The notes beneath the pieces are model-generated. The model was not told the origin of the DNA. It saw nothing but the letters and a program-made list of their open reading frames with translations, and ran no database searches. A stretch of 64,000 nt of DNA from Apostichopus japonicus (lineage: Eukaryota; Echinodermata; Holothuroidea; Aspidochirotida; Stichopodidae): contig NC_092570.1 in NCBI RefSeq assembly GCF_037975245.1, forward strand, positions 2,685,501 to 2,749,500, given 5' to 3'. Of this stretch, positions 39,349-48,205 are shown one piece after another. The translations under genes were made by a program, and so were the position numbers. Position 1 is the stretch's first letter; every line of letters begins with the position of its first letter.

Positions 39349-42300
39349 CTTTGTAAATGATTCTTTCAAATTTGAGACAGTTGGTCGAGCGGAATAATCT
39401 TTATTCCAGCATTCAAACAAGCTTTTATTTCTGTGAATGAGTACAGTATATATATCATATAAATAAATAACCATAAAATAAATATAACTGATTAAAATGA
39501 AAATCAATTATTCATTAATGCATCAAATGTTCTCCGTGTCACAAATTCAATTTGCGAACATAACTGTCTTTTCTTTAAAGATAGTATTAGAAACATTTAA
39601 ACACTGTATAGGACTTATCACAAGTGAATTATTAAAGCCAGCACGGGCTTCAGCCTCCCCCCCCCCCTCCACGCATCCGCATCCGCACTGCCCCCAACCC
39701 TTCTCCTACAGTGAACATTGTTTTGCCCTTTCAAGTTTCTCCATCAAAACTAAATGCAAGAGGCACAATTTGGCGTTACAAATGGAAATTCTTCAATTTC
39801 GTCTTCATGTATACGTTCAAATGATCTTCGACTTAATAAAAAATGACCTCCAGTCCCCAAATTAAGATGCCAAGGAAAGCAGATGGTGCTGTGCAGGTTT
39901 ATACTTACTGAAGTTGTTGGTATCTCTCTGGCCAGGGTTTTCCTGGACCTATGATGGCCTCTTCCGTATGTAACTCTTGATCTACAAGGAATGGCGAGTT
40001 CCCTGTAAAAGTCAACGCGATGAAACAAGAATAAGTTGTATCACCCAAATTAGGTGCATTACATACCACCAACAGGTAAAAAGCAGTTTCTCATTAAAAA
40101 TCAAAACAGTTAAAAGTTCCGGTTTTATGAACTATTTTCATGCACTTTGATCGTAAAACAAACTATGTAATGAAAATAATTAAAGCAACATAGGAATTAT
40201 ATTTATATTCTTACCAACGGACATCATTTCCCACATTAAAACCGCTATAGACCAAACGTCACTCCCCTGATTGTATTCATTTCTTAGTAAGGCCTCCGGT
40301 GCAAAGTGGTTTAATGAAGCTATAACCTGGAGATTCAAATGTGACATATATAGTTAAAACAAAAATTAGGAGCTGGTTAGAGGAAGAAAGTCACACATTT
40401 TTTTTTAAAGTGAATTATGTTATAGTTATATTGTAAAATGGCGTGTATTACTAAATGAACAAAAATTGAGAATGAAAAAAAAATGAGATGAATTATACCA
40501 GATATTATAATCAGATAACATAAAATATCATGCTAGATGCTTTACTCAGATAACATGAATTATACCAGATATTATACTCAAATAACATGAAATATCATGC
40601 TAGATACCATACACAGATAACATGAAATATACACGATTCTATAGGCCTACAACTATATACTGTATTCTTTTAACAATAACAATGTTAGATACTATAATCA
40701 GATAGCATGAAATATGCTAAATACTATACTCAGATAATATGATATATGCTAGATACTTTACTCCAATAAATACATCGGATACTTTACTCAGATAACACCA
40801 AATATGTTATATACTTTACAAAGATAACAAAACAATATGATAGATACTGTGCGCAGATAACATGAAATATGTTAGATACTATACACAGATAACAAAAGAT
40901 ATGTTATATTATATACACATATAACAACATATATATTAGATACGATACGAAGATAACAAGGAATATGCTATATACTATACATAGGTAACAAAAGAAATGC
41001 TAGATTCTATACTCAGATAACAACATATATGTTAGATACTATACACAGATTACATGAAATATTTTAGATACTTTACTCAGATAACAAGCAATACTGTATA
41101 CGCAGATAACATAAAATATGTTAGATACTTTACACAGATAACATGAAATATGTTAGATGCTATACACAGATTACAAAAGATATGCTAGATTCTTTACTCA
41201 GATAACAACATATAGGTTAGATGGTATACACAAATAACATGAAATATGCTATATACGATACACAGATAACATGAAATATGTAGATAATATATTCAGATAA
41301 CATGAAATATGTTAGATACTATACTCAGATATATCAAATATCATGGTAGCTACTGTAATTATAACATGAAATGTCATTAACGATGACATCAAATGCTCAA
41401 AATATTTTTCTTAAAGATAGTAGATATCATTTTATGGGACGAACGGTAATAAAAAATAGCACGAACGAGAAATTACCTGCATCTTTTTAGTTGCCACTAT
41501 CTCTGATGCGTCTTCTGATAGACAAAAATCGTATAGTTTGCAGTCTCCTTGATTGGAGAGTAAAACCTTCTTCAATGATAACCCGGGATGAAGAAACTAT
41601 TGTTATGAGTAAAGAAGAGTAATTCATCATGAAACAACGCAATATAACTGTAAAAGGAAATGTGTATCACGAAAAAGAAGTTAAACGACCCGCGTAACAA
41701 GCACATTACTTTAATCAGATACTCCCATGGTTTTAAAAAAAACTTATTATATATATTCTACATCTTTTGGCTGAAACCAGATTCGAGGAGCATTATGTAT
41801 CTTGCAGAGACAGTGTTTTAAAATCTGATAAAATGTCATGCAAGTATCTGGTAACAGCAGAATGAATAATGTCATCAAGACATGTTAATTTAGTTGAAAT
41901 TGGTTTGTTTGCTTTTGTTATATGCGACTCAGTTATACAGCAACAATAAAATAGTAGCAAACTATGTACACAGTGGTGTATTCGAAAGAAAGAGAATGTT
42001 GACAAGTTAGCAATAATTACAGATGTATCATATATATTACAAGAACAATCATCAGCAATATGAAGGTTTGATAACATCGACCATGATTATATCATAGGCC
42101 ACGTACTATTTGATCAACCTCCTGAAGTGAGCAAGGGATTTATCGGATGAAAACAGTTTACAGTCAAGCATCCATACTGTATGCTATGTATATAGAACAC
42201 ATGAACGAGATGTATTGATGATGTGATTTATGCTACTACGTACTATGATCAACCTCCTGAACTAAGCTAGGGGTTTATCGGATGAAAACAGATTACAGTC

Positions 42301-45300: not shown

Positions 45301-48205
45301 GGGGTGGGGTTGGGATGGAATTGAATGGAAACAATTTGTCCCTTTTCACCTCACGAATATCGAAAGATGTAGTCACGTGGTATGTTGATTACGTTGAGCA
45401 GACATTGAAATGAAAGCAGATGTATTACTTGATACAAACATTCATTGACTGACTGCCTGATATACATAATATCACTATCTCAACATTAAAAATACAAGAT
45501 ACCATGGCACTATTAAATATCATGGAAAAAAACTACCTTGAATTGTTATTGTAGCCTCGTTTTGTATATAAAAAGCACATTGTAGATTTGTAGACGATTT
45601 ATCAGGAGAATGAAGACAAAACAACATGGCGGAACGAGTTAAATGTGTTTACAAGATAGTGATGATGATGATGATGATGATGATGATGATGATGATGATG
45701 ATGATGATGATGATGATGATGATGATGATGATGATGATGATGATGATGATGATGATGATGATGATGATGATGATGATGATGATGATGATGATGATGATGA
45801 TGATGATGATGATAAGCATGAATATCGGCCTCGAAGGTAGTTATTTTATGATGCTGTATATGAAGTGAAGGTCTGTTATTTACACTTCAGGTCAGGTGAA
45901 TATCAATTTCACAGTTTTAGCTCATTACAGATGTTGTGTACAATTTGGAAAACCATTTCAAGTAGGAAAGCCGTAGTCGACTAGGGATCGTACCTACGAC
46001 CTTCCAGATTCTAGCTTCTAATGTCATCTTTTGTCCCCTATCCACTCGATCATAGCACACAAAGTGCATGTCGTGTCAACAAGTCAGTATGTGCAGAAGT
46101 GTATGTCAACTTACCCCATAAGAGTGGATCACTTCCATGCCCGACATGATACCAGAAGCGTGTTTCATTATATCCGAAACCATCATGCTAGGGAATGGAC
46201 TTGTTTCAGCATTTGGATCACTTTTACCAAGCACCTTACTTTCCAACGTTTCACATATAAGATGCTCGTTAATCAGATAAAAATTGGCTGAAAGAAAACA
46301 AAAATCAATATTTAATAATTAGACATAATTACAAAGTATAAATACAATATGTTGTCCCTATAAAATACAAAGAAATGCTTATACACAACACATTATATAA
46401 TCGTTTGCTTTTATTCAAACTCGCAATATGCTTTGCAGATTAGATTATCTCTTTCAATACAATGGTTATTTAAAACGTCGAATCAATTCCACAGACTCTA
46501 TAAAAAAAAGGGTTGAAGTTGTGCGTTCAAAGTTCGAAATGAAGAGTAAAATAAAAATTGGAAATTTATCTCTCGCCAATTCAGCGTTTCATCTTACAGT
46601 TTGATCGATATATCTCCAGAATTTGGACGGCTCGCGTCCAAATTTTAGCACTGTTACCCAATGAGTTTGGTGCTTAACTTTCTTCCTTTCTTTACTGTTA
46701 ACAGTTACATCAATTGACAAAATGTCGACTTAAAAATGTGAAATTCGATAGATCATGAGGTATCTAAAAAATAAATTAATGGAACACTTGATTGTTCGAT
46801 TGTTCATATTGTGGTGTAACGGTGTTTTGTTTCAGTATTCATAAAATTGTTGGGAAATTTGACTTTCTGGCCAAACAAACATACGTTTGGTCGAATCAAG
46901 GTACCAACACCCTCAGATTGGCCTTATGCATGTTTTCTCCTTAACCTTCCTATTATAGTTTCACTAGAGACTTTGGCATGCTAATTAAGTCTTTAATCCG
47001 TTACTACCTGAATAACGGATAATCAAGAACGATCACACGACAAAAATTCAACCAATCACAGCCTAAGAATCTAAATAACGTTTAAGGTTTTTTTTATTTT
47101 AAAATAAAGAGTTCTCACCTTTGTCTATAGCGATACCCTCAATGCTTGTGATATGGTCAGTATTGGGCATCTCGAGTGCTCTCTTAACAAAAGCATCCCA
47201 GTGGATTTCTTTCTTCATTGCCTGTGATTCTAAATTTGTATTTAATAGAAACATTTTACGTTTTTATAAAGGTATATAGTTGTTACTCGGATATACGCTA
47301 TGTGTATGATTCTGACGAAATCATGTAATAATATGCACATGTTCGAATTAAACACCTCTCAAACTAACATTGAGAACAATGCAGCCATAAACATGTGACT
47401 CAGTTACTACCAATCAGTGAGATCTTTAAACTCTAATCCAATTAATCTCTAATCCAATACAGAGATTTCTGTTCCACAGCTTAGTTGTTTATTCTTTACT
47501 TTCTTTTTCAGCGGTAAATCTTTATAGTATTTCCCTACTTTCATCGTTGCATTATGTCTACTGAGTTTTATTAAACGTTTAGAAAAAGTTTCCATGTACA
47601 TCAATTATCCTTCTAGTTAGTTGCATGGTACTGCAGCACTGCTCGAAGAGAGACATAGCTTTAAGAACTTTTTTAATTTATCGTTATATAATCGAAAGAA
47701 GACATTGGTTATGAAATGTCTTGTGTTTATTTCAGAGAATTGTAACAGTTCTTCAATTAAAGCATTTTGAATGATAATAAGTGATCGATGCTGCTCTGAG
47801 TTTCTGTCATATGATACAATACAATAAACTTGTCTCTAGGTTAGCAGTCAAGAAGGTGTTATAAACATGGTTGACCTCTTGTGGATATATAAATGTTTAG
47901 TATGTGTCACTTTTGTTCAACTAAGTAATACAAGTTCTATGATTATATAATCCACTGTTTAACAACACACCACTATTTAAATATGAAATGGTTTTACTCA
48001 AGCAATACACGTGTGATTATGATGATGAGACGCTTACCTGTCACTGTGGTGAAAACAACACATCTGTTACTTTCTCGAGAAACCGCGATGGTCCCCATCC
48101 ATCGATTATAAATCTCCCCCATCTTCAAATTTAAGATGAGACACATATCATTCTCGCCAAACATTTTCCCACCTGATGACGTTTCATTGGTCGTAGCATA
48201 ATAGT
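39349..48205 (-). CDS. Kinase-like domain exons of the receptor
   Basis: Seven exons from 48205 to 39349 make the kinase fold. Strands 1 to 3 (ILNLKMGEIYNRWMG, NRCVVFTTVT) lack the glycine-rich loop and the lysine. The C helix region is WDAFVKRALEMPNTDH. Helix E is VSDIMKHASGIMSGMEVIHS. The catalytic-loop position reads FLHPGLSLKKVLL where active kinases have HRDLAARNVLL. The metal-binding motif is YDFCLSED. Subdomains VIII, IX and XI (APE, DVWS, RPT) are intact, so the fold is kept. The acceptor for exon 47229 was set at AATTTAG because that alone keeps the frame (TESQAMKKEIHW). Confidence 0.85.

Follow-up and report, generated by a model that had tools for sequence, protein, structure and literature searches.

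An immunoglobulin-type receptor gene of the sea cucumber Apostichopus japonicus with a probably dead kinase-fold domain, and the large family around it

The stretch of DNA analyzed here, referred to as the window, comprises 64,000 nucleotides of the sea cucumber Apostichopus japonicus (NCBI RefSeq assembly GCF_037975245.1, contig NC_092570.1, positions 2,685,501 to 2,749,500 of the forward strand). It harbors a minus-strand gene at positions 53078-39349 that likely encodes a single-pass immunoglobulin (Ig) receptor with a catalytically dead kinase-fold domain in a docking or allosteric role, one of a large sea cucumber family of such receptors. The predicted kinase-fold domain very probably cannot transfer phosphate. 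Because selection has kept the same dead active site across a very large family, signaling by these receptors probably does not depend on a catalytic activity of their own. As far as sequence can tell, the dead active site is a fixed and selected feature of one clade, because the proline that replaces the arginine of the HRD motif is invariant across all four of its codons, the ratio of nonsynonymous to synonymous substitution rates (dN/dS) is 0.26, and the family rows compared form a single clade.

Architecture and active site of the window gene

Hand splicing yields 17 exons and 16 GT-AG introns, all in phase, in one open frame of 603 codons with 0 stops, which reproduces the exon count of the initial annotation. 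From the 5′ side, two Ig-type exons are followed by exons for a short stalk and a transmembrane helix, by six juxtamembrane exons, and by the seven exons of a kinase-like domain (k1 to k7). The protein has the architecture of a receptor tyrosine kinase, namely, an extracellular domain, one transmembrane helix (by eye), and an intracellular kinase-type domain. The predicted retention of the kinase fold is borne out by Pfam matches to PF07714 (PK_Tyr_Ser-Thr, 6.3e-30) and PF00069 (1.2e-22), which assign the protein to the protein-kinase fold by sequence, as well as by APE and DVWS in k5 and RPT in k7; PF07714 reaches 9e-28 and 1e-27 in two scanned paralogues. The seven kinase exons lie inside 48205-39349, and they are open with AG/GT borders and matching phases, as claimed. 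The same exons with identical borders recur in paralogues, ruling out mis-joined exons. An Ig ectodomain had also been proposed, and Ig exons are indeed found, but both of them and the transmembrane exon are located at 53078-51146, outside the interval of 39349 to 48205 to which the gene had been confined. A search downstream of 39349 found no exons beyond k7.

The active site departs from that of a functional kinase at several positions. The three motif changes described initially are exact: β3 reads CVVFTTV, the HRDLAARN position reads HPGLSLKK, and the DFG position reads YDFC. In the HMMER alignment, the VAIK lysine position is occupied by threonine. In HPGLSLKK, both the arginine and the aspartate of HRD are lost, and the asparagine five residues after HRD (HRD+5) is replaced by lysine. 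The description of three changed sites holds in that all three read as stated; however, more positions differ, including HRD+5 and the glycine loop (GEIYNRWMG), and the aspartate of DFG is kept, with only the glycine lost. The helix-C glutamate position is aspartate in the window gene (HMMER alignment) and aspartate, asparagine, glutamate, or another residue in the paralogues (by eye); since this position varies among paralogues, no claim is made on it. A pseudokinase is taken to be a kinase fold in which at least one of the VAIK lysine, the HRD aspartate, and the DFG aspartate is gone, and the window gene lacks the first two. The intact VAIK, HRD, and DFG of an active receptor tyrosine kinase are absent from it.

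The family in the genome and the selection acting on it

A kinase-domain search of the genome, in which 136 of 866 candidates were scored, returns at least 139 exon matches; chaining 137 of these yields 83 loci spread over 11 contigs. Used as genome queries, two versions of k4, the catalytic-loop exon, each give at least 150 matches, with E-values up to 0.009. Pooled, the two queries find this exon encoded at 206 or more different places, a number that counts exon places and not genes; 98 are on contig C12 and 56 on C16, i.e., 154 on these two together. Four further places counted by eye raise the number to 210. On C10, the window exon is the sole member among the 206 places listed. A one-gene oddity is ruled out by these numbers.

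The k4 survey covers 120 of the 206 places, many of the weakest matches included, and some of the other 86 were read within loci. Neither HRD nor DFG occurs in any of the 120 exons. The HRD position reads HPG in 77, HPA in 24, and other forms in 19, while HRD+5 is lysine in 111, arginine in 5, asparagine in 3, and tryptophan in 1. The exon is open over its 40 codons at 115 of 120 places, and GT follows at codon 40 in 114 of 120. Upstream sequence is available for 119 exons, 118 of which have the acceptor AG. The β3 lysine position, read by eye in 14 k1 exons (a further 12 loci, mostly repeats of the same genes, being left out), is threonine in 12 and serine in 2. APE or PPE, DVW, and RP are retained in most paralogue exons inspected. 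On this reading of the exons, the re-coded site is inherited as one: His-Pro-Gly/Ala at HRD, lysine at HRD+5, mostly Asp-Phe-Cys, and threonine or serine in place of the β3 lysine. The expansion within the one genome examined fits a putative lineage-specific family.

Selection was assessed on 147 k4 exons of 120 bases, which reduce to 137 distinct exons and, after 5 distinct ones with a stop or an N are dropped, to 132 without a stop. Proline occupies the position of the HRD arginine in all 132 and is encoded by CCT (58), CCA (40), CCG (18), and CCC (16). The lysine at HRD+5 is encoded by AAG in 70 and AAA in 53, and the DFG aspartate is present in 117 of the 132. Of the 66 disjoint nearest pairs, the 41 whose silent differences are below 0.6 give a dN/dS of 0.256. 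For longer assembled domains the median ratio is 0.17 where dS exceeds 0.05; the pairs used belong to a set of 146 finite-dS pairs that overlap one another and include a few wrong exons. Compared with 17 paralogous loci, several of which are the same gene, the window gene shows 0.67-0.88 silent differences per site, which is near saturation, and 0.27-0.40 amino-acid-changing ones. The dN/dS measurement suggested in the initial annotation, made here on paralogues of the same genome, agrees with its reading of a retained pseudokinase and not a decaying gene, in that the changed sites are common to a paralogous family under purifying selection.

The ectodomains of a few paralogues are also discernible. 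Locus L037 has two Ig exons as in the window gene; the first matches C2-set_2 at 3.9e-11, and the counterpart of the second gives a weak Ig_2 match (6.5e-6), slightly below the cut-off. Weak Ig matches are seen in L038 (0.0078) and in L040 (0.017 and 0.026), the latter having an extended open frame that begins with a hydrophobic segment and includes a transmembrane stretch (by eye). The close paralogues L042-L044 match the second Ig exon of L037, and L042 and L044 also match the first. In L044 the first Ig exon occurs twice, at 4649-4957 and 5885-6001 of the locus, and the second copy is truncated by the end of the fetched stretch. On these few genes, the matches suggest that ectodomains may change by exon duplication.

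Relations, proposed action, and rival explanations

Another family of receptor kinases is also expanded in this genome, on contigs C13, C17, C18, C19, C21, and C22; its catalytic exon has the sequence HGDLAARN...DFG (HGD-type). As a query, this exon gives 73 matches; 37 of them are at E ≤4e-16, two of these 37 with a stop. At the four HGD-type loci L059-L062, the aspartate, the asparagine, and DFG are all intact.

In a 22-row tree, ten rows of the dead family stand on one side of a branch supported at 100/100. The branch leading to the family is very long (2 and 0.92 on either side of the drawing root). The 12 rows opposite comprise FGFR2, FGFR3, EGFR, and two Eph receptors, together with rows from this genome that are ROR-like, PTK7-like, and MET-like, one further row, and three HGD-type rows. 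The references in this tree are short fragments, the sea cucumber rows are named by eye, and the PTK7-like row is a half domain on a long branch. The family rows group with neither FGFR nor PTK7. A 127-row tree of the 40-residue k4 exon is too weak for placing the window gene. Against solved structures, a nine-member family profile finds FGFR1-4 in 59 of its 60 best rows, with many repeats of the four proteins, and EGFR in the other; for the window protein by itself, the top matches are Eph receptors. FGFR-class ancestry of the family is a lead, not a result, because the profile favors FGFR1-4, the window protein alone favors Eph receptors, and the tree references are fragmentary.

The comparison with known receptors is instructive. 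The family shares with FGFRs an Ig ectodomain, a transmembrane helix, and the kinase fold, and the FGFR1 exon corresponding to k4 begins just before HRD, as k4 does. However, the sea cucumber family is without the β3 lysine, HRD, the asparagine, and the glycine of DFG, and it forms a separate clade. FGFRs have three Ig domains, whereas the window gene and L037 have two Ig exons. PTK7 (CCK4) combines an Ig ectodomain with a pseudokinase, as the window gene does, and has seven Ig domains. The PTK7-like locus of this genome, L051, retains H-x-DLAARN (HADLAARN) and is separate from the family. The ROR-like locus L047 has intact HRD and DFG, with the whole domain in one open frame (both loci are named by eye). 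ErbB3 (HER3) is likewise a receptor pseudokinase, but its ectodomain differs and it is a single gene as opposed to a large family. It signals by activating a partner and retains the β3 lysine, DFG, and ATP binding. To our knowledge, animal receptor pseudokinases are single genes or small sets.

By analogy with ErbB3, the pseudokinase of the sea cucumber receptors would offer a docking site to an active partner kinase or regulate it allosterically, and the Ig part would bind a ligand or a surface protein of another cell. The HGD-type receptors may constitute a partner set. The lysine at HRD+5 might pair with the kept DFG aspartate at the metal position and so close the site; the near-fixation of this lysine and the retention of the aspartate suggest such a salt bridge in place of magnesium. 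A bolder proposal, held tentatively and considered doubtful as a whole, is that some 200 or more germline-encoded Ig receptors, sharing one re-coded dead kinase domain for signaling, would serve in immune or self-recognition, allosterically activating shared partner kinases (perhaps HGD-type), with the Lys-Asp lock replacing the metal site. In the plant receptor EFR, the kinase domain is described as acting on the active co-receptor BAK1 without catalysis (in the available part of PMC11259431), although the lineage is that of plants and the ectodomain is unrelated to that of the sea cucumber family.

Several observations weigh against, or limit, the reading of these genes as a uniform family of dead Ig receptors. 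All of the evidence is DNA sequence. No convincing candidate for a signal-peptide (5′) exon of the window gene was found up to 58450. Two of the 139 kinase-domain matches, belonging to other kinases, were left out of the chaining, and the tree and the profile use 10 and 9, respectively, of 16 assembled family proteins. The 147 exons with 137 distinct sequences may include recent or haplotypic duplicates. Exceptions to the re-coded site exist: L115 reads HPD and keeps the HRD aspartate (1 of 120 k4 exons), the asparagine at HRD+5 is retained in 3 of 120, and L183, a dropped exon with a stop, has lysine at the proline position. Since the DFG aspartate is kept in 117 of 132 exons, nucleotide binding may persist. 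For the more distant branches (DFW and DIC types), a single exon was read and the Ig ectodomain is assumed; the paralogue ectodomains described above come from a handful of genes, located upstream on the strand of the kinase exons, with splices not traced one by one. The assembled domains contain wrong exons, e.g., k5 of L003, and include outlying ratios for L037/L032 (1.97, on two silent changes), L003/L004 (0.78), and L006/L036 (0.62). Three k1 pairs have ratios of 2.03, 1.62, and 0.81 on 1 to 3.5 silent changes. For the Ig exons, compared among three to four close paralogues, the ratios are 0.18-0.47, and therefore there is no sign of positive selection in these exons.

If the family consisted of decaying pseudogenes, the lost motifs would be neutral damage. 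A stop does interrupt the first 40 codons of 5 of the 120 surveyed exons, and stops are flagged in 1 of 150 and 2 of 150 matches of the two k4 genome queries. This explanation is nonetheless scarcely credible, given 115 of 120 open exons, AG and GT almost always in place, a dN/dS near 0.26, replacing residues that are conserved while their synonymous codons vary, and a window gene whose silent sites approach saturation when its amino-acid sites do not. An active enzyme with unusual chemistry, in which the lysine has been relocated or another transfer reaction is performed, is improbable. WNK kinases have their catalytic lysine moved elsewhere, and the retained DFG aspartate (117 of 132 distinct open exons) together with one or two Lys/Arg residues after the HP-G motif would suit such an enzyme; however, the β3 lysine, HRD aspartate, HRD+5 asparagine, and glycine loop are all altered in the window gene, and no compensating residue was identified, no systematic search for one having been made.

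The remaining alternatives accept a dead domain and differ in what the receptor does or where it comes from. Decoy or damping receptors would capture FGF-like ligands or form pairs with genuine FGFR-class receptors, whose output would thereby be reduced. The Ig ectodomain and the family profile, with FGFR1-4 in 59 of its 60 best rows (many of them repeats), speak for this role, which is regarded as unlikely, as an intracellular domain in a decoy would not need a dN/dS near 0.26, the best matches of the window protein on its own are Eph receptors, and FGF binding is itself hypothetical. The outline of an Ig ectodomain on a pseudokinase also recalls PTK7, but the idea that the family is a lineage copy of ROR or of an established pseudokinase receptor, PTK7 for example, is hardly tenable with separate PTK7-like (L051) and ROR-like (L047) loci in the genome and with the family rows in a clade of their own.

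Published expansions, exon coordinates, and other features

Expanded receptor kinases have been reported from A. japonicus. According to the main text of PMC6018497, the species has 38 'Fgfr' genes, most of them in a separate clade, whose expression mostly falls during aestivation and rises when the gut regenerates. The main text of PMC5638244 describes an expanded and clustered 'tyrosine-protein kinase receptor' family and discusses it under signal recognition and the nervous system. Both are receptor kinase genes of the same species and are compared here by description only; the word 'pseudokinase' is absent from the main texts of PMC6018497 and PMC5638244. An identity of the 38 'Fgfr' genes with the dead family was considered and dropped, because their number is close to the 37 strong matches of the HGD-type family, which may be the published expansion. 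In the available part of PMC9890533, the receptor AjFGFR2 carries an STYKc domain in addition to three Ig domains, and the available part of a Holothuria glaberrima genome preprint (PMC13228809) mentions the Fgfr expansion only. Judged by titles and the beginnings of abstracts, the open papers listed for pseudokinases in echinoderms or sea cucumbers include no report of a catalytically dead receptor family; among other subjects, they deal with MLKL and KSR3.

The published expansions had been read as extra signaling in the nervous system or regeneration. If their lists include the dead family, some of the expanded genes probably encode receptors incapable of phosphorylation. A dead-kinase receptor family of at least 206 exon places would provide a natural library for the study of non-catalytic signaling by the kinase fold.

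Table 1. Exons of the window gene in window coordinates. The support for the six juxtamembrane exons is their splice sites and phase.
Feature	Position	Strand	Support or remark
Ig1 exon (C2-set-like Ig)	52764..53078	-	Pfam C2-set_2 1.2e-8; AG/GT
Ig2 exon (Ig-like by eye; no Pfam match in window gene)	51893..52147	-	AG/GT, phase
Stalk exon	51475..51525	-	AG/GT, phase
Transmembrane exon (PPSIAAAVASFLAFCLYKGIKRAK)	51146..51268	-	Hydrophobic stretch by eye; splice phase
Juxtamembrane micro-exon 1	50285..50309	-	AG/GT and phase only
Juxtamembrane micro-exon 2	50112..50131	-	AG/GT and phase only
Juxtamembrane micro-exon 3	49646..49661	-	AG/GT and phase only
Juxtamembrane exon 4	49362..49414	-	AG/GT and phase only
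Juxtamembrane exon 5	49018..49048	-	AG/GT and phase only
Juxtamembrane exon 6	48650..48711	-	LPKIPTDEE; L037 shows LPSIPSDES frame
k1, kinase-like domain start, altered glycine loop, β3 CVVFTT (Lys lost)	48038..48205	-	
k2, helix C region	47119..47229	-	
k3, hinge to helix E	46115..46287	-	
k4, catalytic-loop exon, HPGLSLKK and DFC	41477..41596	-	
k5, APE and DVWS	40215..40326	-	
k6, helix G region	39909..40002	-	
k7, domain end, CW and RPT	39349..39430	-	

Tandem repeats occur within the span of the gene. The k3-k4 intron holds a minisatellite of ~130 bases in 11 copies (42306-43778), and the k4-k5 intron a degenerate 32-base repeat in 21 copies (40671-41331). A perfect TGA microsatellite of 51 copies is located at 45660-45813.

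Upstream of the receptor gene, an open frame on the plus strand at 58470-59705 resembles a rhodopsin-like G-protein-coupled receptor (by eye). Elsewhere in the window are two very similar amino-acid transporter exons in tandem (9230-9766 and 12564-13055, SLC7-like by eye) and a minus-strand ankyrin-repeat gene at 5275-6607, perhaps with a SOCS-box-like end (by eye). Finally, a single kinase exon (profile positions ~122-180) is matched many times, at L064 and on contigs C4, C9, C14, C19, and C20. By eye, L064, which is the only one of these loci read, resembles FES/FER, and several of these matches contain a stop; they could represent duplicated or retroposed genes.

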